NCBI GenBank assembly: GCA_905479815.1
Contig: CAJQOA010000230.1
Span: forward strand, 1 to 38,241
Direction of reading: 5' to 3'
Source of the DNA: an uncultured Psychroserpens sp.
GTDB lineage: Bacteria; Bacteroidota; Bacteroidia; Flavobacteriales; Flavobacteriaceae
Length of the DNA: 38,241 bases
How positions within the stretch are numbered: position 1 is the stretch's first letter; each line of letters begins with the position of its first letter. A program made the position numbers and the translations under genes. Below are positions 12,193 to 25,912 of this stretch, in pieces. Under the pieces are notes generated by a model. The model saw only the letters and a list, made by a program, of their open reading frames with translations, did not search any database and was not told where the DNA came from.

Positions 12193-13419
12193 ATGAAAAA
12201 TGGCTCATTATCAATAGTATTAACTTCTGAGTACTTCAAAATAATTTTAGAAAAAGTCCATGAAGCCTTTATGAGCAAGCATAATCTTGTTAAGCTTCCA
12301 AAAGCGTTACAATTATATGGTTATGGTGCATATAATGATAATAAACCTTCCTTAAAGAAAGATTTTGAAGACATTGGTTCTGAATTTATTAATGGAAAAT
12401 ATTTATATGATAAATCAAGAGAATTCGAAAAAGGAAAACCAATAATTAAGCTTAATCAACATTATAAAGATATTATTTTGCTTTATCTAGGGTATGATGA
12501 TTTTAAATATTTTCTTGATGACCATAAAACATCTAGTATTGAATATGAAAAGCAATATGATTTAATTTATAGGGATAATGAGGATAGAACTTATTACTAT
12601 CTGAATTACTATTTTGGAGAAGACAACACGATATTAAAAGGACAAACTATAATTTCAAATAATTGGAAAACAATTCAGCATATTTTTATATATCCATTAG
12701 ATGATGGTACTTTTAGAGAACATTATAGTAACGGAAGCATTAAGCGACAAGGAGATACTATCACAATAAAAACCAACACACTATCTGGAGAAAGATATAT
12801 TGATGGCGCTAGTGAGATATATTATATAGGACATAAATCACCTTCACATTTAAACTACTTGATAGGTACCTATTGCACTTTCGATATTTTTACTAATTCT
12901 GTTGCAGGACGCTCTATTCTTGAAAAATGTGAAAGTAAGCAGGTAATGGAAGAACAATCTAAAACACCTTTTATTCCGCCATATATTGCTTTAGAAATTA
13001 GAAATAAGCGTATTGTTAATAATAGTTTTGTGCCTAGAAATGCTTTAGAATTATCTAGCAATAGTCCTTATGCTTCTCTTTATGGTAAATTACCTGGAAC
13101 CTATGAGTTAATTTTTAATTATGATACTGGTTTTAAAGAGACTTTAAAATTTAAAATATTAGATACAAATTATCAGATTATCACTTTAACTGAAAATGTA
13201 TATATTGAAAAAGATAATATTGAATTGCTAAACAAAGGATCTGTAATAAATTTCAGATTTAGTTTTTCAGGTATTATAGCTCTTGAGAGAGTGAATATCT
13301 TTTTTAAAACCTACTTTCTCAAAAATGAAAGCGGCAAGCAAGAAGGTGTTTTTAGTGGCATTGATAATGAAAATAGGTTAATAAATGGAACTTTGACTGT
13401 AAACTATGTTCAGAATTAA
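12193..13419 (+). CDS. hypothetical protein; N-terminal HTH-like region and beta-rich C-terminal region
   Basis: Isolated 408-aa ORF; 'YKDIILLYLGYDDFKYFLDD' segment followed by beta-rich sequence; no family confidently recognised. Confidence 0.7.
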   Translation: MKNGSLSIVLTSEYFKIILEKVHEAFMSKHNLVKLPKALQLYGYGAYNDNKPSLKKDFEDIGSEFINGKYLYDKSREFEKGKPIIKLNQHYKDIILLYLGYDDFKYFLDDHKTSSIEYEKQYDLIYRDNEDRTYYYLNYYFGEDNTILKGQTIISNNWKTIQHIFIYPLDDGTFREHYSNGSIKRQGDTITIKTNTLSGERYIDGASEIYYIGHKSPSHLNYLIGTYCTFDIFTNSVAGRSILEKCESKQVMEEQSKTPFIPPYIALEIRNKRIVNNSFVPRNALELSSNSPYASLYGKLPGTYELIFNYDTGFKETLKFKILDTNYQIITLTENVYIEKDNIELLNKGSVINFRFSFSGIIALERVNIFFKTYFLKNESGKQEGVFSGIDNENRLINGTLTVNYVQN

Positions 13420-13577: not shown

Positions 13578-14282
13578 CTAACAATCATTAATCGGTTCTA
13601 ATAACGGACAAGTTCCTGCATTAGGAATTGTACTTTTAACAGGAGGATCTGGATAGTATTGCATGGTACGTTGCACTTTGACAGCACTAGCAGTTCCAGC
13701 AATTAACTCGACCAAATAAATGGCTTCATCAAGTCCAGAAGAAATGCCTCCTCCTGTAACTCTATTTCCGCTTTTTACATAACGTGGATGTCCATCTACA
13801 ACTGTCACTTTTGGATACTTACCAAAGCAATTAGTAAACGCCCAATGCGTTGTGATTTTATGATCATTCAATAAGCCTGTATTTGCAAGTAATATTGCTC
13901 CTTCGCAAACAGAACAGACCCAATCTGCCTTTGCTCCTGCGCTTTTCACATAGGCCGTATAAGGTGAATTTTTATCTTTAATTATAGTATTTAATGCTTT
14001 TGGACAGCCTCCTGGAACCCAAATTAAGTTAGGATGCTGTACATCTGTATTACAAAATGTAGATTCAACAGTAATTGTCACACCATTATTAGTTGTAAAA
14101 GTCCCTTCTTGTTTGCCAACATATTTTATAATAACCTGTTTTTGGAATGAATCGTCTGAGCCTAGCCAACTAAATATTTCACGAGGCGCTGCAATATCCA
14201 TTAAATCAACACCATCAAAAATGGGAATGACAATAAGAAATATAGGAAGCAATTGTTGTGCTTTAGTTTTTTCAGGTAGCAT
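13578..14282 (-). CDS. DJ-1/PfpI family protein
   Basis: 'IPIFDGVDLMDIAAPREIFSWLG', 'WVCSVCEGAILLANTGLLNDHKITTHW' nucleophile elbow, 'SGGGISSGLDEAIYLVE'. Confidence 0.9.
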   Translation of the reverse strand: MLPEKTKAQQLLPIFLIVIPIFDGVDLMDIAAPREIFSWLGSDDSFQKQVIIKYVGKQEGTFTTNNGVTITVESTFCNTDVQHPNLIWVPGGCPKALNTIIKDKNSPYTAYVKSAGAKADWVCSVCEGAILLANTGLLNDHKITTHWAFTNCFGKYPKVTVVDGHPRYVKSGNRVTGGGISSGLDEAIYLVELIAGTASAVKVQRTMQYYPDPPVKSTIPNAGTCPLLEPINDC

Positions 14283-14296
14283 ATTATATGTGTTGT

Positions 14297-14761
14297 TTAT
14301 CGTATTACAAAAAATGGACGTTTAAATAATTTTATGATTTTATCGCTAGTCTGCTTAGAGAAATTACTAAGCGCAATTAAAGATAGAATGATATACAACC
14401 AAAAGGTTTCACTAAGGTTTATATAATACGTTAGAAGCAAAATTGAAACTCCTAAACCATAAAAAATAATGCTTAACCATGCTTTGTTTAAATAGTGTTT
14501 CCGCAGTAATAAAAAGCTTCCAATACCTAATAGACCAAGAATAACATAACTCCAATTAGAATTATAACTAATCGACTCTAAGCCTATAAAACTAAACAGA
14601 GACGCATAGGCTGCCCAACACATTGGACATTTTGGAAATAGAAAAAGTAACACTACAGATAGACTATTTAACACACTCATTTTTTTACCACCTTTTGTAG
14701 GTGCTTTTTTTAATGAATTACGATTACTACAAGCGCAAGACGTTTTTTTAGATTTTTCCAT
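14297..14761 (-). CDS. small integral membrane protein with Cys motifs (MerC-like topology)
   Basis: 154 aa, about 4 TM; N-terminal 'SCACSNRN' and membrane-proximal 'FPKCPMCWAAY'. Confidence 0.65.
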   Translation of the reverse strand: MEKSKKTSCACSNRNSLKKAPTKGGKKMSVLNSLSVVLLFLFPKCPMCWAAYASLFSFIGLESISYNSNWSYVILGLLGIGSFLLLRKHYLNKAWLSIIFYGLGVSILLLTYYINLSETFWLYIILSLIALSNFSKQTSDKIIKLFKRPFFVIR

Positions 14762-14789
14762 CTGAAGTGAATTTTAGGTGTTATACATA

Positions 14790-16385
14790 TTAGTTTTTTG
14801 ACGTTGGTACTGGTACATCTTTATCCCAAGCTGCTTTTTTAAGCAACCAGCTAAAGTCACCAGATAATTGAGATGCATTTCCTTTGATTATGGAGTCATT
14901 TCTTGATATATATGAATTGATCAAATAGGCACTTGAATGGCAACCAACACAACTTTCTGTTCCAAAAATGGTCATATCAGATTGTGAGTTCTCCATAAGT
15001 CCAGCAACTTGGTTGCCGCCTTGGAAAAAAGTTTCCATAGAGATATTAGTAAGAAATGTCAAATTAGGCTTTCCTCCAGATTTATTGACCACACTTTCTG
15101 GTAAATGGTATTCTGTTTTTGTACTAATAGCTGGTTTTACATCTTGAGATACAGGATACTGTGTGTCAATTAATTGATAATACTGCCATATACTACCTTG
15201 TTGCTTAAAATAGTCTTGCATCATCTTATTGATTTGTTTGACACGAACAGGAATATCGATCATACGCTTAGATTGCGTTTTCATTATAGATGCATCTGCA
15301 TAATATTTATTGGTATCGTTAGTTATTTTCCAATAATCACCATGTTTTGTTGTATGATGCTCATAAGTGTTTCCTTTATTTGTAGCATCAACATTTACTG
15401 GACATGTTTCGCAATTAGGATCTGTAAGTGTTGGATGTATAACAACTGTCTCACCATCGACTTCAATAGTGTTTTGATCTAAATTGTCTATATGTTCAAA
15501 TGTTGACCACACCCATTGCTTACCTGTTGGTGTTTTTTGGCTGATATGAAAACCAATTAATCCAAGAAGTGCTTTTTTTGGTTGTCCTGTCGTTTCATTA
15601 ATAATATAACCTTCATCTCTAAAATAACGGTCTTTATGTGGATCTGAATCTTTTAAGATGCGCCAAGCAAGTTTAATCTCTGTCGCTCCAAGTTGCCCTT
15701 TTTCATAATTTCCCTTCGGAAAATTAGCTTCGGTATTGGTCTTTAAAAATTCTAATTGCCCGTTAATATTATAAAGTTTGTTATCTATAACGTAATCATA
15801 CTCTTCCTTGTTCATTAATACTTCATAAACAACAACTTCACCGTTTTGATCAAATAATTTTCCTGCAAAAGCCTGATCGGTTTCATCGGCAATATTATCG
15901 TGTCCTGTATGTGTTGGTGTTCTACTACTTAATAGTATTCTAGAACCATTATCATTAAGTAAACTTGATTTAAGACCTAAACCACTATCGGTTCTTGTAC
16001 TACCCCAAGCTGCTGGTTTTTTACCATCAGCACGATATACTTGAAAAGCTTCTTTCCATTGTAACCATGCAGGCGAACCATCATCTGTGAAATTTTGAAG
16101 TGCTTTTCCTTTAGCATCTAGAGGCCAATTTATGGCAACAAGCGCCTGCCAACTATAGATGTTATAAATTTCATTAAGTTGGTATATATCATCTGCTTCT
16201 TTTAATATTTTTTGTAACGCAGGATCTACATCTACTGGAATGTTTGGTGTAAATACTGCTGGAGCTTCAAGAACCACATAGTCACTTGTGTTTGTTTGAT
16301 TACAAGATGAAGCCAGGAAGAGGATAGATAGAACAATTGCTTTGGGCATGGTTCTAATAAATAATTTTGATATGTTTAATGTCAT
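14790..16385 (-). CDS. lipoprotein with c-type heme motif (cytochrome c-like family)
   Basis: Lipobox-like 'LFLASSCNQ' and C-terminal 'ESCVGCHSSAYL' (CxxCH). Confidence 0.75.
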   Translation of the reverse strand: MTLNISKLFIRTMPKAIVLSILFLASSCNQTNTSDYVVLEAPAVFTPNIPVDVDPALQKILKEADDIYQLNEIYNIYSWQALVAINWPLDAKGKALQNFTDDGSPAWLQWKEAFQVYRADGKKPAAWGSTRTDSGLGLKSSLLNDNGSRILLSSRTPTHTGHDNIADETDQAFAGKLFDQNGEVVVYEVLMNKEEYDYVIDNKLYNINGQLEFLKTNTEANFPKGNYEKGQLGATEIKLAWRILKDSDPHKDRYFRDEGYIINETTGQPKKALLGLIGFHISQKTPTGKQWVWSTFEHIDNLDQNTIEVDGETVVIHPTLTDPNCETCPVNVDATNKGNTYEHHTTKHGDYWKITNDTNKYYADASIMKTQSKRMIDIPVRVKQINKMMQDYFKQQGSIWQYYQLIDTQYPVSQDVKPAISTKTEYHLPESVVNKSGGKPNLTFLTNISMETFFQGGNQVAGLMENSQSDMTIFGTESCVGCHSSAYLINSYISRNDSIIKGNASQLSGDFSWLLKKAAWDKDVPVPTSKN

Positions 16386-16435
16386 AACGAGTATGTTTTG
16401 ATGGTTATATTTGTATTATATCAAAGTGATATAGT

Positions 16436-17956
16436 CTATTCATTTCTTAATAGTAATCTCACATTAATAGTAGGATTACCCATCATTTTATGAGGAAAAT
16501 GATCTCCAAAAGGTCCATGATCTATTGGTTCTATCCATGCTTCCAGTTTACCAGATTTTACATCTTTTAAAGGCAATTTGAAATCAACATGGACAATTGG
16601 ATTTTCTACACAATTAGGACATTTATCTACTTCTGAAGGTTGAAAAAATCCTTTTGAAGCGATTACTTTTCCGTCTTTTAATAAGTGTACACTAAAGCTT
16701 CCTGGAATTTTAATTCGATTGATACCTTTAACTCTAACATTAGCAATGTCGGTATCGATATGGAACTTCTCTGAAGCGGCCACTGAACCTTTTCTTTTTG
16801 CTGAAAATGAAGTCATAGCAATTTCGTTTATATTAACTGGAGAATCGTAATCAACATCTAAGTTTACGATTGAATCAACAATCTTAACAGTGTCAAGATT
16901 TGGTGGTGCGTCTGTAAATGGAGGTAAATTTTCTAAAACTGGTATCGTAAAAATGTTTCGACTATCAGTTGTGGTGATTGTAGAAAGCAAGCCATTGAGA
17001 TCAGTAGCATGCATTCCTTTTTGCCATTCCCAGAACATACGATCTATATTACAATGATAGAACCAGAAAATAGGATCGAAAGCTGCAACGTTTTGATCTG
17101 CCATTGTTGGTCCAATAGATACGTGACCAGCATCATGAGCAGCAATTGAGGTATCATTTGTAGCGCCTCCAAAAGCTTGTCCACCATGATAATCCTCCCA
17201 ATCTTTTTGTGTCTTAGCTCTTGTAAAGTCTGTGATTACATCATAGGCTTTGAACATGGCTTCCATTTGTTTTAAGGTATGTCGCTGTGTTTGATACCCT
17301 TTTTGATATTTAGTGTTTAAGGTTTCTGGAAGCGTATAACTTGCAAATGGTTCTTGGTTTAAAATGTCTGGAAATTCATTAAAAATATCCCAATATGGCA
17401 TTGTTACATTTTCACAACCTGGAACGCTACGTAATGCGTTTTCAAAATTGTAAATATACGATCGATGCCATGGATTATAGCCTGGAATGTGGTGCATGCA
17501 ATACGGATTTGGTAAACCATGTAATCCTGCTTGCATGAAGTAACTATTAGGATCACTAGAATCCAGTTTCATAAGCCCTGCAAACGCTTTCTTAAGTGTT
17601 TCAATTTCGCTAGACGATAGACTAGAAACATCTTTACGTACACGTCCTGCTGAAACTTCAGCCATAGCTTTAAGCCTACTACTTGCCTGTGCTGGTGGTG
17701 TTCCTTTAGGATACCCATTTGTCATCCAATCTAAAAATGTTTGTATTTGACTTTTAGACCAAGGGCCTTCGCCTCCTGGAGGTGGTGGTGGCATATTTCC
17801 TGCTGCTAATTGTCCATATATTCCTGGACCATTAGTTTTTACCGAATCATAATCATTTAATAGAACTCCATGAGGAGTCATATGATCTATATCTGTTTGT
17901 GTGAACATGTTGCGGATGCCTCCATACCAAGTTGATGCCGTAGTTATATCACTCAT
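16436..17956 (-). CDS. tyrosinase / polyphenol oxidase family protein with N-terminal cytochrome-like module
   Basis: CuA 'HHIPGYNPWHRSYIYNFENALR', CuB 'HDAGHVSIG...FDPIFWFYHCNIDRMFWEWQ'; N-terminal 'GGIRNMFTQTDIDHM...YDSVKTNGPGIYGQLAAGNMPPPP...WSKSQIQTFLDWMTNGYP'. Confidence 0.93.
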   Translation of the reverse strand: MSDITTASTWYGGIRNMFTQTDIDHMTPHGVLLNDYDSVKTNGPGIYGQLAAGNMPPPPPGGEGPWSKSQIQTFLDWMTNGYPKGTPPAQASSRLKAMAEVSAGRVRKDVSSLSSSEIETLKKAFAGLMKLDSSDPNSYFMQAGLHGLPNPYCMHHIPGYNPWHRSYIYNFENALRSVPGCENVTMPYWDIFNEFPDILNQEPFASYTLPETLNTKYQKGYQTQRHTLKQMEAMFKAYDVITDFTRAKTQKDWEDYHGGQAFGGATNDTSIAAHDAGHVSIGPTMADQNVAAFDPIFWFYHCNIDRMFWEWQKGMHATDLNGLLSTITTTDSRNIFTIPVLENLPPFTDAPPNLDTVKIVDSIVNLDVDYDSPVNINEIAMTSFSAKRKGSVAASEKFHIDTDIANVRVKGINRIKIPGSFSVHLLKDGKVIASKGFFQPSEVDKCPNCVENPIVHVDFKLPLKDVKSGKLEAWIEPIDHGPFGDHFPHKMMGNPTINVRLLLRNE

Positions 17957-21115: not shown

Positions 21116-22807
21116 CTATGCTTTTAACTCATCAATCAACCATAATGGTTCTTTGTTAAATCGCTTCCAATCTGCCTGTAGCGCAGTGTATAGTTTGTCG
21201 ATTTCAGAAAAATCTAGTGTTGCAAGATTTGGATCTGCTTTTAGTTTTAAGATATAATCCATCAGTTCATAGCACACGGTAAATTGTCCGCAGGCAATTA
21301 GTGTTTCCATTCTGTTTGCAGCAATATCTTTTTTGTCCCACCATAATGTAGTAGGCGTTTCTGAAGCTGTTAAACAAACACTTTGCAAGTTTGTACTTGG
21401 TGCAGGTTTAATCTCTTTGTTAAATGAGCTATTACTATATGGTGATTTTTGACCATTTAATTTGTAGACCGTTGCTGTAACACGTTTGTTATTTAACTCT
21501 TGTTTAGAGTAAAACAAATCATAACTTAATCGTCGCATTTGCTTTAAAAACACATCGTTTATCATAAGCATTGCCGATGTAAATCGCTCAGTAAGCATAC
21601 GCTGTACTAAACTTATTTCTAGCTTCTTAAATGTTAAGATGTCATCTAGTAAAGGTTCAGGGACATTATTTTTAAGCATCGATTTTAATTTAGAGGCTGC
21701 AGCGGCTTTTATAACTGAAGCTACTAACCCAAATACCGTTAATAGTAATCCAATACCCATTATACCACTTCCAACGATATATAAACCTGTAAACGCTGTA
21801 CCGCCAAAGATGAGCATGCTATTTAGTAGTATAATCACTAACCCTAATACAAAGGTAATCCAGTATAAAGGTTTGATGCTAAAGTATTCTAGCAACGTAT
21901 TTACAACACGTTTTACACTAGAACTTTTTTCTATTTTAGTCGTGTCTGGTTCCCAAGGCTTCATTTTGTAACTCCCAACGTCATTAACGATAATTAGGTC
22001 TAAACCACCTTCTATTCTATCGTTAATTAGCATCATACTCCCAATACCTTGATTGTCTGCGATACCACCATCCATAATTCCGATACCGTCATTAAAATGC
22101 TCTAACCCTTTTAAATTTTTGTATTCAGGACTATTGTGATCCTCAAAATAATCATCTGGAAATACTAAAGGTTCAAATCCCACAGGAAAACAAGATGAAG
22201 ACGCAATAACATCACCTAGTTTAACGTCATTGCGTAAGGCATTTACTTCTTTTTGATTGCTTTTGTATAATGGCGTGTTTCCAAAGTATCCTTTATTCTG
22301 AAAGCGATACGTTAAGCCAAAGGTGAAATCTGTAGCATTAAAACATACTTGTTCTAATTGTTTGATCTTATTTTTTTCGAAATGGAGAAACGAACCTTCA
22401 AAGACTGGCATGCCTTGATACGTTAACGCGAACGCATTAATTAACGATCGTTTTTTATAGGGATTTGCTTTCCAAACCTTATCATCTTCTAGCTTAGCAA
22501 TCGCGGTTTCTAAAAGCACGTCATTTTCTGGAGTAAACGTTGTATAAAAACGTTTAAAGAACTCCTTAAAATCATAATTGGGATCTTGGACTGCTTTTGC
22601 ATAAGCAACTCCGGTAAGTGTGCCTCCACTTACAGTACTTAGTGCTTTTACAGATTGTAGTAACGTTTTATCATTATAAGATACTTGCTCTAAATAAGAG
22701 ATCACACCTAATGCAAAAAAAGTGGCACGATACCCTCCTCCACTAAAACATAATCCAATATTTTGAAAAGGTTTAAAATTTGCATGTTTCTCTAATACGT
22801 CTGGCAT
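21116..22807 (-). CDS. patatin-like phospholipase with internal TM hairpin
   Basis: 'GLCFSGGGYRATFFALGVI' oxyanion motif, 'LSTVSGGTLTG' nucleophile, 'IMDGGIADNQG' DG catalytic Asp; TM pair 'PLYWITFVLGLVIILLNSMLIFGG...GIMGIGLLLTVFGLVAS'. Confidence 0.9.
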   Translation of the reverse strand: MPDVLEKHANFKPFQNIGLCFSGGGYRATFFALGVISYLEQVSYNDKTLLQSVKALSTVSGGTLTGVAYAKAVQDPNYDFKEFFKRFYTTFTPENDVLLETAIAKLEDDKVWKANPYKKRSLINAFALTYQGMPVFEGSFLHFEKNKIKQLEQVCFNATDFTFGLTYRFQNKGYFGNTPLYKSNQKEVNALRNDVKLGDVIASSSCFPVGFEPLVFPDDYFEDHNSPEYKNLKGLEHFNDGIGIMDGGIADNQGIGSMMLINDRIEGGLDLIIVNDVGSYKMKPWEPDTTKIEKSSSVKRVVNTLLEYFSIKPLYWITFVLGLVIILLNSMLIFGGTAFTGLYIVGSGIMGIGLLLTVFGLVASVIKAAAASKLKSMLKNNVPEPLLDDILTFKKLEISLVQRMLTERFTSAMLMINDVFLKQMRRLSYDLFYSKQELNNKRVTATVYKLNGQKSPYSNSSFNKEIKPAPSTNLQSVCLTASETPTTLWWDKKDIAANRMETLIACGQFTVCYELMDYILKLKADPNLATLDFSEIDKLYTALQADWKRFNKEPLWLIDELKA

Positions 22808-22916
22808 AATGTTGCTGTTATTGTTTAGTTAGTCTAAAATAGTTATTAATTAGACTAGTGTTATACGTAGAATTACCTGTTTTTATAAAATGGATATTGT
22901 GGCACTAAATTACAAT

Positions 22917-23939
22917 CTATTTTTGGCCTTTATAGTGAATGATAAAAAGCTCTTTTTTCTCTTCTTTACCAACTCCGTAACCTGCACCTAATTTCACATC
23001 ATATATTGGGATTTTAGTTTTGGACATTGAAATTTCTATACGTGTTAATAATTTAGCTATAGCTAGAGCTTGTTCTTTATTAGAACTGTCATAATACAAT
23101 ACGGTAGATGTATTTGAGAAAAACGATTTTTTTTCTTGCCAATCTGGATAAATATCTACGCCATAACCTTTGGCTTCTAATTTATCTTTAAAAGCATATT
23201 TAATTTTCTCATTGGTGTTATAACCATAAATTCTAACATAAAATTCATTATTAGTATCTGCAACAGAAGTAGGCTTTTCATGACCAAGTTCTAAAGCGTC
23301 TTGATTATTTTTAGATCTACTATTTGGAAATATTTTTAAATATTCAATATTTATATTATTATCTTTTAAACGCTTAACAAGTAATTTGACATCATTAATA
23401 TTTACGTTTTTCCCATAATATAAAGCATTCGTTTTTCGTTTGCCATCATCATTTACGACATCATGTAAATCTAAATGGAAATTTGGAGATTCAATACTCT
23501 TAATTGCCTGTTCTACACGATTACCATCTGCCCTACGCTTGTAATAACGTACTATAACTCTATTAGAAATAGATTTTATAGTATTTAATTGCACTTGAAT
23601 TAATTCAATTTTTTCTTTTGTATTTCCATTTAAGTTAGGTGAATTATTTAGCGTATTTACTTTTGCTTGGACTTCTTTAACAATTTGATTTACAGAATCC
23701 TCTATCTTTTTCTTCTCAATATATTCAATAGAATCACGTGCTATTTGGGCTTCCTTTTCTATTATTATATAAGCTGAAGTTTGGTCTACGACTTCTTGTT
23801 TTTCTTTTTTTGTATATATGTTATAAAGAAATAAGCTTGCAAAAACAATTAACCCAATAATTAGAAGCACAGAACCATTGCGACTAGTTTTCTTCTTTTT
23901 TGATTGATATTCTTTTAATTTTTCGTCTAATGTACTCAT
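22917..23939 (-). CDS. single-TM protein with two LytR_C/SPOR-like alpha-beta repeats
   Basis: TM 'NGSVLLIIGLIVFASLFLYNIY', coiled-coil linker, then two related units: 'ALYYGKNVNINDVKLLVKRLKDNNINIEYLKIFPNS' and 'TSTVLYYDSSNKEQALAIAKLLTRIEISM'. Confidence 0.7.
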   Translation of the reverse strand: MSTLDEKLKEYQSKKKKTSRNGSVLLIIGLIVFASLFLYNIYTKKEKQEVVDQTSAYIIIEKEAQIARDSIEYIEKKKIEDSVNQIVKEVQAKVNTLNNSPNLNGNTKEKIELIQVQLNTIKSISNRVIVRYYKRRADGNRVEQAIKSIESPNFHLDLHDVVNDDGKRKTNALYYGKNVNINDVKLLVKRLKDNNINIEYLKIFPNSRSKNNQDALELGHEKPTSVADTNNEFYVRIYGYNTNEKIKYAFKDKLEAKGYGVDIYPDWQEKKSFFSNTSTVLYYDSSNKEQALAIAKLLTRIEISMSKTKIPIYDVKLGAGYGVGKEEKKELFIIHYKGQK

Positions 23940-23954
23940 GTGTTCAAGTATTAT

Positions 23955-24902
23955 TTATTTAACAATGTCCCAAAACTGTTGTTTGATATTAGTAACTGTT
24001 TCATCAGCATTTGGTATTGGTGGAGTCTTAAGTCTTTCTAAAAAAGCAGAGATATCATTTTCTAACATTTCTAATAAACTTAAAGATTTTTCTATGCCGT
24101 CTAATTTGTCTTTAATCCATTTAATTAATCCAAGTGGCATAATACCAACAAGGGTGAATAATGTATCTTGGTCATTCAGTAATGAGGTTACAACAAGCCC
24201 TATAGAAGCTAAAACAGTAACTACAATTAAAATATGAAAATCACGTTTTCGTTTTTTACTTTTTGTTCTTGCTATTGTAAAGTTTTCCTCTGGAATAATA
24301 GTTAAAACAGACGCCTCATCTGTATTTTGACCAAACTGAAGATCTGTATTACCCAATAAAACGGGTATACTCTCTTCTCCAAAGCCTTCGATGCCTACAA
24401 CATCAATCGCTGTTTTAAATGCATCGCTAATAGATTTACCTTCAAAGAAAGAGGTGTAAAATGCTTTTGAAAATGTGGATGCAGTATCATTAGGGACTTC
24501 AGTATTCATCCCAATGATTGCTTGATCTTTGGTAACCCTAAAATCGCTTGTTTTCATCAAGCTAAAACACGCATTCATAAATACACATTTAAGATGTGGT
24601 TTATAATTTTGTATAAATTCACTAAACATCTCTATGGAAACTTCCTTTTTATAATTTTCCTCATCATGAAAGTATAAGACGCCTTCTTCACTTCCATGAC
24701 CAGAAATATGTAAAATATCTGGCTTGTAGCTTTCTAAGTCGCTATGAAGCATATCTTTAGTTACAGCACCTTTAGATTTTATCTCAAAATAGTCACGATT
24801 GGCAGAAGCGACACGTGCACTTTCTATATTGTTTTCTTCTACATCTAGAAATAGATTTGTAGTTCCTTTAGGATTAACTTTTATAAATAATATCTTTATC
24901 AC
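23955..24902 (-). CDS. CHAT domain (caspase-like) protease with C-terminal TM hairpin
   Basis: Catalytic dyad motifs 'ILHISGHGSEEGVLYF' (His) and 'LKCVFMNACFSLMKT' (Cys); 'GFGEESIPVLLGNTDLQFG'; TMs 'FHILIVVTVLASIGLVVTSLL', 'LFTLVGIMPLGLI'. Confidence 0.88.
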   Translation of the reverse strand: MIKILFIKVNPKGTTNLFLDVEENNIESARVASANRDYFEIKSKGAVTKDMLHSDLESYKPDILHISGHGSEEGVLYFHDEENYKKEVSIEMFSEFIQNYKPHLKCVFMNACFSLMKTSDFRVTKDQAIIGMNTEVPNDTASTFSKAFYTSFFEGKSISDAFKTAIDVVGIEGFGEESIPVLLGNTDLQFGQNTDEASVLTIIPEENFTIARTKSKKRKRDFHILIVVTVLASIGLVVTSLLNDQDTLFTLVGIMPLGLIKWIKDKLDGIEKSLSLLEMLENDISAFLERLKTPPIPNADETVTNIKQQFWDIVK

Positions 24903-24911
24903 AACGTCTAA

Positions 24912-25841
24912 TTATAGTGTTACATTTAATCTTACATCTTTGATATCTATGTCCTTATCTGAGCGCACATTAACTCCAGAAAGTATAAGTTCTTCAGGTG
25001 TGTCTTCTACAAATTTTTCGGTAGCTTCATGAAATTTTAAACCTGATAATTTTTCAATAAAATCAACTCTAACCTGATAGGTTTCTGCATCTTTAAAAGT
25101 CATAAACAAATCGGTGTCTTCTACCTCATGTCCGCGAACTGAAGGTTTTACAATGCGACGTTTTTCTAATATATTTTTCTGACTAGTTAAAAATGCTGTT
25201 CTATGTAAGACATTATCATTTTGATAATAAATCACTTTCCAGAAAAGGCAAGGAATTTGTATGATAGTGTCTCTTACTTCTGTCACAAAATTTGGATCAT
25301 TATCTCGAAATACTGGACCTGTAAATAAGTTTATTTTTATGTGTTCGGAAATTGTTTGATGATGTAATATATAATCTTCAATTTTTCGCCAAATGCCTCT
25401 ATTAAGTCGGTCTACTTGTGGCATTGCGTTTGTGTAAAAGAAGGTAGATTCTGCAGCAGCTACAGCTTTATCGCGATCATCTCCCCATTGTACATCCTCT
25501 CGTTTTGTAAGATGACCTTTATCAAAATCACTTTTATCAGCACTATATAATTCGTGACCCAATTGTTCTTCTTTAGGAATACGAGTGTCTTTTTTCCATC
25601 GATCACCTTTACCTGAGAACAGTTCTTTTCTTTTTATTTTCTGAAACTGATTACCATGAATATTACTAGCTGTGAAATAAGGGAATTTTCTGAAAGGATT
25701 GTGAAGTACACTGAAATTTATATAGTCTAATAAATAGGTAGAACGATTCAAACCATTTGTGATGAATTTCTCATCTTCCGTTGACGAAATCTCAGGGATT
25801 TGAACGTGATGTTCTCCCATAAAAGAATGTTTATAACTCAT
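24912..25841 (-). CDS. DNA/RNA non-specific endonuclease (ββα-Me NUC family), no signal peptide
   Basis: 'FDKGHLTKREDVQWG' (DRGH-like), 'ESTFFYTNAMPQVDRLNRGIWRKIEDYI' (N-rich metal-site helix). Confidence 0.9.
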   Translation of the reverse strand: MSYKHSFMGEHHVQIPEISSTEDEKFITNGLNRSTYLLDYINFSVLHNPFRKFPYFTASNIHGNQFQKIKRKELFSGKGDRWKKDTRIPKEEQLGHELYSADKSDFDKGHLTKREDVQWGDDRDKAVAAAESTFFYTNAMPQVDRLNRGIWRKIEDYILHHQTISEHIKINLFTGPVFRDNDPNFVTEVRDTIIQIPCLFWKVIYYQNDNVLHRTAFLTSQKNILEKRRIVKPSVRGHEVEDTDLFMTFKDAETYQVRVDFIEKLSGLKFHEATEKFVEDTPEELILSGVNVRSDKDIDIKDVRLNVTL

Positions 25842-25850
25842 TATTAAAAA

Positions 25851-25912
25851 TTATAAGTGTTTTATCTATAGGGAGATAACTCAAATATAGTGATTTTTTT
25901 TAACACTTATAA
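25851..25912 (-). promoter_or_regulatory. promoter/leader of the nuclease-CHAT operon flanked by an 11-bp inverted repeat
   Basis: TTATAAGTGTT (25851..25861) and AACACTTATAA (25902..25912); minus-strand TATATTTG (25889..25882) matches the Bacteroidetes TAnnTTTG -7 box; inner TTATCT-N6-AGATAA hairpin. Confidence 0.5.

Follow-up and report, generated by a model that had tools for sequence, protein, structure and literature searches.

Do four closely spaced genes in an uncultured Psychroserpens species form one multi-effector system, or does a smaller unit lie within them? The genes are on the minus strand of a 38,241-nucleotide contig (CAJQOA010000230.1, the whole of which is referred to here as the window), in the order NUC, CHAT, LytR_C-like and patatin. 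A first-pass annotation took them to be four parallel effectors in a single module. We lean toward another reading, in which the first three genes constitute a transmembrane alarm and suicide module, and the patatin is an optional accessory. The evidence that carries this reading consists of conserved gene linkage, intact active sites, matched domains in the membrane proteins, and a NUC tree that is sorted by protease partner.

The gene layout originally described holds up, both in its coordinates and in its catalytic motifs, which are intact and conserved. Gaps of 9 base pairs (bp) between NUC and CHAT and 15 bp between CHAT and the LytR_C-like gene are followed by a gap of 109 bp before the patatin. 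Based on their open reading frames (ORFs), Pfam matches and homologues, NUC (24912..25841, minus strand; 309 amino acids, predicted cytosolic) is an Endonuclease_NS-type nuclease (PF01223, E 5.7e-42), DNA/RNA non-specific and of the EndoG/Serratia, beta-beta-alpha-Me kind, and CHAT (23955..24902, minus strand; 315 amino acids, GTG start) is a caspase-clan cysteine protease (PF12770, E 4.2e-7). ORF, Pfam and hydropathy data identify the patatin, designated PATa (21116..22807, minus strand; 563 amino acids), as a patatin-like phospholipase (PF01734, E 9.6e-12). These three proposed family assignments exceed the cut-offs in hidden Markov model searches, whereas the fourth does not: LytR_C (PF13399) scores 20.6 bits against a curated cut-off of 22.2 with the remaining protein (22917..23939, minus strand; 340 amino acids), and its name thus reflects a weak resemblance. 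The earlier statements that the enzymes lack signal peptides and that three of the four proteins have transmembrane (TM) segments also agree with our analysis, as hydropathy places TM segments in every protein except NUC, and the N-termini of NUC, CHAT and patatin carry no hydrophobic segment. Likewise, no STAND sensor or cyclase is present in the window's version of the module.

The first three genes recur together. In a sample of 301 genomes of Flavobacteriaceae that includes the window's own, CHAT homologues are present in five genomes, the window's own among them, and the NUC subfamily in eight (E < 1e-100); both are absent from the two sampled genomes of the same genus. CHAT directly follows NUC in all four of the other CHAT-containing genomes, and is itself followed by a LytR_C-like gene in three of them. 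Full-length LytR_C-like proteins occur in this sample only beside CHAT-NUC, in four genomes by full-length match and additionally in G158, whose LytR_C-like sequence was itself part of the query. In a wider set of 22 CHAT-NUC loci, a LytR_C-like gene is immediately 3' of CHAT in 14. The NUC-CHAT-LytR_C-like arrangement is found as a single set in about 16 genomes, in many genera and in divergent genomes, which is beyond chance. The core is three genes from marine Bacteroidota, and is rare and accessory. The earlier view of a membrane-associated module of the conflict or cell-death type, containing a protease and a nuclease, is supported, and the CHAT and NUC counts mark it as accessory. The module appears to be horizontally mobile. 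Candidates for phage or plasmid carriage were limited to distant CHAT or NUC matches, none of them in viral contigs. The thiE and DUF3857 proteins that flank the locus lack clear orthologues in both sampled congeners, so these genomes permit no empty-site comparison.

NUC genes are usually accompanied by a protease. A genome-wide scan detected 56 NUC loci, or 57 with the window, and in 42 of these a CHAT, trypsin or caspase is adjacent or fused to NUC. CHAT adjoins NUC in 22 loci and caspase in seven, five of which are TIR-caspase-NUC operons. Trypsin accounts for 13 loci, comprising one fusion (in Bradyrhizobium, L068) and 12 adjacencies, 11 of which are GAP1-N1/EAD1-trypsin/NUC operons. Among the remaining 15 loci, seven end at a contig edge. 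The NUC tree groups by protease type, requiring two label changes for the three groups compared with 16.5 in shuffles, and trypsin-partnered NUCs form a supported clade. Catalytic residues H110, N138, N147 and E155 are invariant among 40 homologues. The closest solved structures are EndoG (profile E 7e-14), EXOG and Serratia nuclease. Outside the EndoG-like core, NUC carries a conserved C-terminal extension (approximately residues 222-309), and its AlphaFold model (mean predicted local distance difference test score 86.8) includes disordered segments at residues 236-244 and 290-301. The sequences of these segments vary with the protease partner, a pattern that is confounded by phylogeny. Given that its subfamily adjoins proteases and that the type of protease structures its tree, NUC is likely a protease-activated suicide nuclease. 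CHAT is better understood as the protein that activates NUC than as a toxin in its own right.

Several NUC loci have additional features. An operon encoding a GAP1-N1/EAD1 protein, a 381-amino-acid protein that matches no Pfam family, an EAD1-trypsin and NUC (L040, L042, L043, L045-L047, L050, L052-L054) spans Bacteroidota and one Parachlamydiaceae metagenome-assembled genome (MAG). The TIR-caspase-NUC operons (L060, L061, L063, L064 and L066) mostly continue with a protein of 164 to 171 amino acids that has no known function, and are Thoeris-like with an EndoG-type nuclease. In Pedobacter (L039:8903-16999), NUC has a long N-terminal extension, such that the nuclease domain begins near residue 390, and two trypsins and an ATPase are encoded after it.

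The CHAT protein consists only of a CHAT domain and a membrane tail, with no SAVED or TPR domain, and a PADLOC match to SAVED_CHAT spans only its CHAT part. Its His69/Cys112 dyad is retained in 23 of 23 homologues, and among solved structures its profile hits the CHAT protein 8tl0 (E 3.6e-18). According to profile and hydropathy data, a two-helix membrane tail occupies approximately residues 200-315 (23958..24305, minus strand), with one clear TM helix at residues 224-242 and then a weaker hydrophobic stretch. A search with a profile built from such C-terminal tails reveals the same type of tail fused to TIR in five other genomes, namely G156 (E 4e-14), G280, G063, G202 and G285 (E 1e-12 to 1e-16), although only the tail part of the G285 ORF was read. 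Four of these TIR-tail loci have a clear start, and in each a gene follows within 3 to 12 bp whose product shares its N-terminal TM/coil with the LytR_C-like protein and differs from it in the ectodomain. A caspase/TPR-S protein is also encoded at the G156 locus, and homologous pieces flank three other TIR-tail loci. CHATs that lack the TM tail also lack a directly following LytR_C-like gene; one is followed instead by a NACHT protein, and another carries EAD11. The CHAT tail is thus a separate domain, and together with the TM/coil at the N-terminus of the LytR_C-like protein it makes up a matched pair. The two probably interact, with the enzyme head and the ectodomain being interchangeable.

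The LytR_C-like protein has a lysine-rich N-terminus, a single TM segment (residues 23-41; 23817..23873, minus strand, by hydropathy), a long coiled coil, and then two domains, each with a predicted beta-alpha-beta-beta-alpha-beta topology. Because of the positive-inside rule, its N-terminus is predicted to be inside and its bulk periplasmic. It is not an enzyme, and resembles the sensor half of a receptor. The replacement of CHAT by TIR on the same tail, with another ectodomain on the partner, suggests that such pairs are modular transmembrane receptors whose trigger is probably periplasmic. We also considered a tandem duplication within the LytR_C-like protein, since the same predicted topology occurs twice, but rejected it given a weak profile comparison (E 0.009).

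Loci with caspase/TPR-S, TIR-2TM and TM-coiled-coil genes recur in Flavobacteriaceae (L164:4285-10646; L129, L130, L133 and L135) and have the same membrane pair as the window's CHAT system. The window's genome also encodes a second, longer CHAT elsewhere (G000:C220:2515-3306, L001), in an open frame of 910 amino acids (E 1.1e-51).

These features suggest a mechanism for the three-gene module. The LytR_C-like protein, held by its one N-terminal TM anchor, would place its coiled coil, along with the two small ectodomains, in the periplasm, where they might sense a disturbance of the envelope, for example the entry of a phage or damage to the wall. The signal would cross the membrane through pairing of the TM/coil with the two-helix CHAT tail and activate the cytosolic CHAT, probably by clustering. 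CHAT would then cut the inactive, cytosolic, EndoG-like NUC, probably in its disordered C-terminal segments, as is suggested by the partnering of NUC with proteases. Released NUC would degrade DNA or RNA, and the cell would be killed or arrested. In some genomes patatin, recruited to the same chromosomal hotspot, could act as a second, membrane-damaging effector.

Several observations weigh against this proposal. Neither PADLOC nor NCBIfam names any of the four genes as a defence gene, and proteolysis, toxicity and a role in phage defence are all predictions for this module. The sub-threshold LytR_C resemblance appears in any form in only four of 15 homologues, a fold search with the LytR_C-like protein gave no significant match (the best partial hits share only a beta-alpha-beta fold), and membrane orientation is derived solely from hydropathy and the positive-inside rule. 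The AlphaFold model of NUC displays disordered segments, not a blocked active site. Finally, eight NUC loci that are intact at their contig ends have no recognisable protease.

The place of patatin is the main point on which other explanations differ. It is intact, with S60 and D246 (the nucleophile and the Asp of the DGG motif) and the GGG oxyanion motif invariant in 20 of 20 homologues, and it has two TM segments (residues 317-366). The PATa family is present in 16 of the 301 genomes, but adjoins NUC only in the window and in Pareuzebyella, where it is beside a TIR-caspase-NUC operon; in the other 14 it is found among unrelated genes. It is quite conceivable, if somewhat short of probable, that patatin is simply a hotspot neighbour, such that NUC-CHAT-LytR_C on the one hand and PATa on the other are mobile accessory genes in their own right, both entering the same variable region. 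The window and five other loci (L014, L016, L109, L112 and L113) have common flanking genes and different cargo, namely NUC-CHAT-LytR_C, PATa or both, and are a shared integration hotspot. Gene order is also permuted relative to a companion accessory block (13578..17956, minus strand) that encodes a tyrosinase (16436-17956), a 531-amino-acid lipoprotein with the haem-c motif CVGCH, a 154-amino-acid protein and a DJ-1/PfpI protein. This block is kept in Psychroserpens at 60-80% identity, beside the same patatin and NUC-CHAT-LytR_C unit in a differing order. However, a shared hotspot leaves unexplained the Pareuzebyella locus, a Lewinellaceae MAG locus described below, and co-occurrence at unlinked genome positions.

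A separate question is what the module responds to. Instead of phage infection, it might answer envelope stress, predation or contact-dependent attack, or programme biofilm lysis, which we regard as a tentative possibility. The predicted periplasmic sensor design and the lack of a defence-library match for the core are in keeping with such roles, but the distribution is sporadic, and sister NUC loci carry parts that are characteristic of counter-invader systems (TIR, EAD1/EAD11, GAP1-N1, NACHT and STAND).

A true four-gene module, which is the first-pass reading with CHAT recast as an activator that also switches on patatin so that nuclease and phospholipase act together, seems unlikely, although PATa is near NUC in four unrelated contexts. 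In addition to the window and Pareuzebyella, these are two Psychroserpens genomes outside the 301-genome sample, in which PATa is 4.6 kb from NUC on the same strand and next to the tyrosinase block, and the Lewinellaceae MAG (L036:205-5952), in which TIR-NUC-EAD11:CHAT faces LytR_C-EAD11:2TM-PATa, thereby bringing all parts together with EAD11 adaptors. PATa is also found in five of the eight strong-NUC genomes versus 16 of 301 overall (P = 1.1e-5, without phylogenetic correction), at unlinked positions in three of them, and an unrelated patatin, PATb, is 3' of LytR_C in Tamlana and G145. On the other hand, PATa is usually not adjacent to NUC or CHAT, PATb elsewhere is mostly alone, the 109-bp gap with an inverted repeat precedes patatin in the window, several adjacencies are accounted for by the hotspot, and the genomes are not phylogenetically independent. 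The 14 of 16 neighbourhoods away from NUC and CHAT rule out patatin as a fixed fourth gene of the core. Patatin is associated with the core, and is not a proven member of it.

Endonuclease_NS and patatin families also hold housekeeping and scavenging enzymes, but a cluster for DNA uptake or degradation, lipid turnover or nutrient scavenging is very improbable here, given that NUC lacks an N-terminal hydrophobic signal, that its subfamily is linked to signalling domains, and that the genes are as rare as noted above and missing from both sampled congeners.

The first-pass annotation is therefore revised in part. It had considered that rare co-occurrence of the four genes would speak against a module; the core genes form a recurrent set, whereas most PATa genes reside elsewhere. 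Its single four-enzyme module is retained as a three-gene core, with patatin enriched in NUC genomes but not a fixed part. Its notion of four parallel effectors is abandoned, since the LytR_C-like protein is not an enzyme, CHAT is better explained as activating NUC, and patatin is not obligate.

Candidate control elements were also detected. A sequence scan found an 8-bp perfect inverted repeat, TAGTCTAA-N12-TTAGACTA (22830..22857), in the 109-bp gap just 5' of the patatin start, which is operator- or hairpin-like. The sequence TATATTTG (25882..25889, minus strand), 41 bp 5' of the NUC start, fits the Bacteroidetes -7 consensus TANNTTTG by pattern match and is a weak candidate for a promoter of the NUC-CHAT-LytR_C unit, as this pattern is common. 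Promoter and terminator scans of the locus gave matches no better than chance. Elsewhere in the window, a 408-amino-acid ORF (12193-13419, plus strand) without a Pfam family resides in the stretch of lowest G+C content (26%). It is 92.6% identical to a protein of another genus (L110:17569-18795) that is likewise ~7 kb from a PATa gene, and looks like a recent transfer.

The nearest described systems pair a nuclease with a protease. The consulted portions of Kaur et al. 2020 (PMC7159879) describe, as 'System 3', conflict systems with a NucA-like endonuclease and a trypsin, for which proteolytic deployment is predicted. The window resembles System 3 in that an Endonuclease_NS-family nuclease is encoded with a peptidase, and the NUC profile recovers the NUC-trypsin fusion of Bradyrhizobium as a relative. 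However, System 3 uses trypsin or subtilisin with EAD1, mainly in alphaproteobacteria, whereas the operon peptidase in the window is CHAT, EAD1 is absent, a TM partner predicted to face the periplasm is present, and the host belongs to Bacteroidota. According to the consulted portions of Tuck et al. 2025 (PMC12799240), metallo-beta-lactamase (MBL)-nuclease proenzymes are cut by trypsin or caspase, and such pairs occur in Hachiman, AVAST, Lamassu, DRT and canu, having been repeatedly re-paired. These are analogues in function, with a nuclease encoded beside a protease, but their nucleases have the MBL fold, unlike the Endonuclease_NS fold of NUC. In those pairs the partner protease cuts insertions that gate the active site, and the two disordered segments of NUC may be candidate counterparts. 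The main text of Tuck et al. makes no mention of CHAT, patatin or envelope sensing. The consulted portions of the two papers describe no CHAT with an EndoG-type nuclease, no envelope sensor and no patatin, and we found no description in the open-access literature of CHAT and NUC combined with patatin or LytR_C. The module thus appears to work like protease-unlocked nuclease systems, but to lie outside the described families because it has neither the trypsin of System 3 nor the MBL fold of canu.

Other resemblances concern individual components. Type III CRISPR CHATs (TPR-CHAT/Craspase and SAVED-CHAT) are also sensor-activated CHAT proteases, but they involve SAVED, TPR and CRISPR parts, whereas the window's CHAT has a membrane tail and a TM partner. 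Type IV Thoeris, which Tuck et al. cite, combines a TIR signal producer with a caspase-like protease. TIR-caspase-NUC operons hold a sister NUC, and the membrane pair also occurs in TIR-2TM loci with caspase-TPR-S, but the window has CHAT, and Pfam detects no TIR among its four genes. Mitochondrial EndoG, an apoptotic nuclease, is the nearest solved relative of NUC by profile and shares its fold and catalytic layout. However, EndoG is regulated by mitochondrial release, whereas NUC is bacterial, has its own C-terminal extension, and is proposed to be under proteolytic control.

If our reading is correct, CHAT with an EndoG-type nuclease would join a short list of protease-unlocked suicide nucleases, and a second nuclease fold would be seen to have entered such partnerships repeatedly, with trypsin, caspase and CHAT. 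Moreover, the sensor would face outward, with detection in the periplasm by a predicted receptor pair, whereas most known triggers are cytosolic. What is new here is the matched membrane pair, consisting of a CHAT or TIR tail and its TM/coil partner. More speculatively, such pairs might represent a family of transmembrane death receptors in bacteria, in which a swappable cytosolic enzyme (CHAT or TIR) on a two-helix tail is matched with a TM/coiled-coil partner bearing a swappable periplasmic ectodomain, so that a surface event would release an EndoG-like nuclease via CHAT, in parallel with receptor-triggered caspase death in animals.

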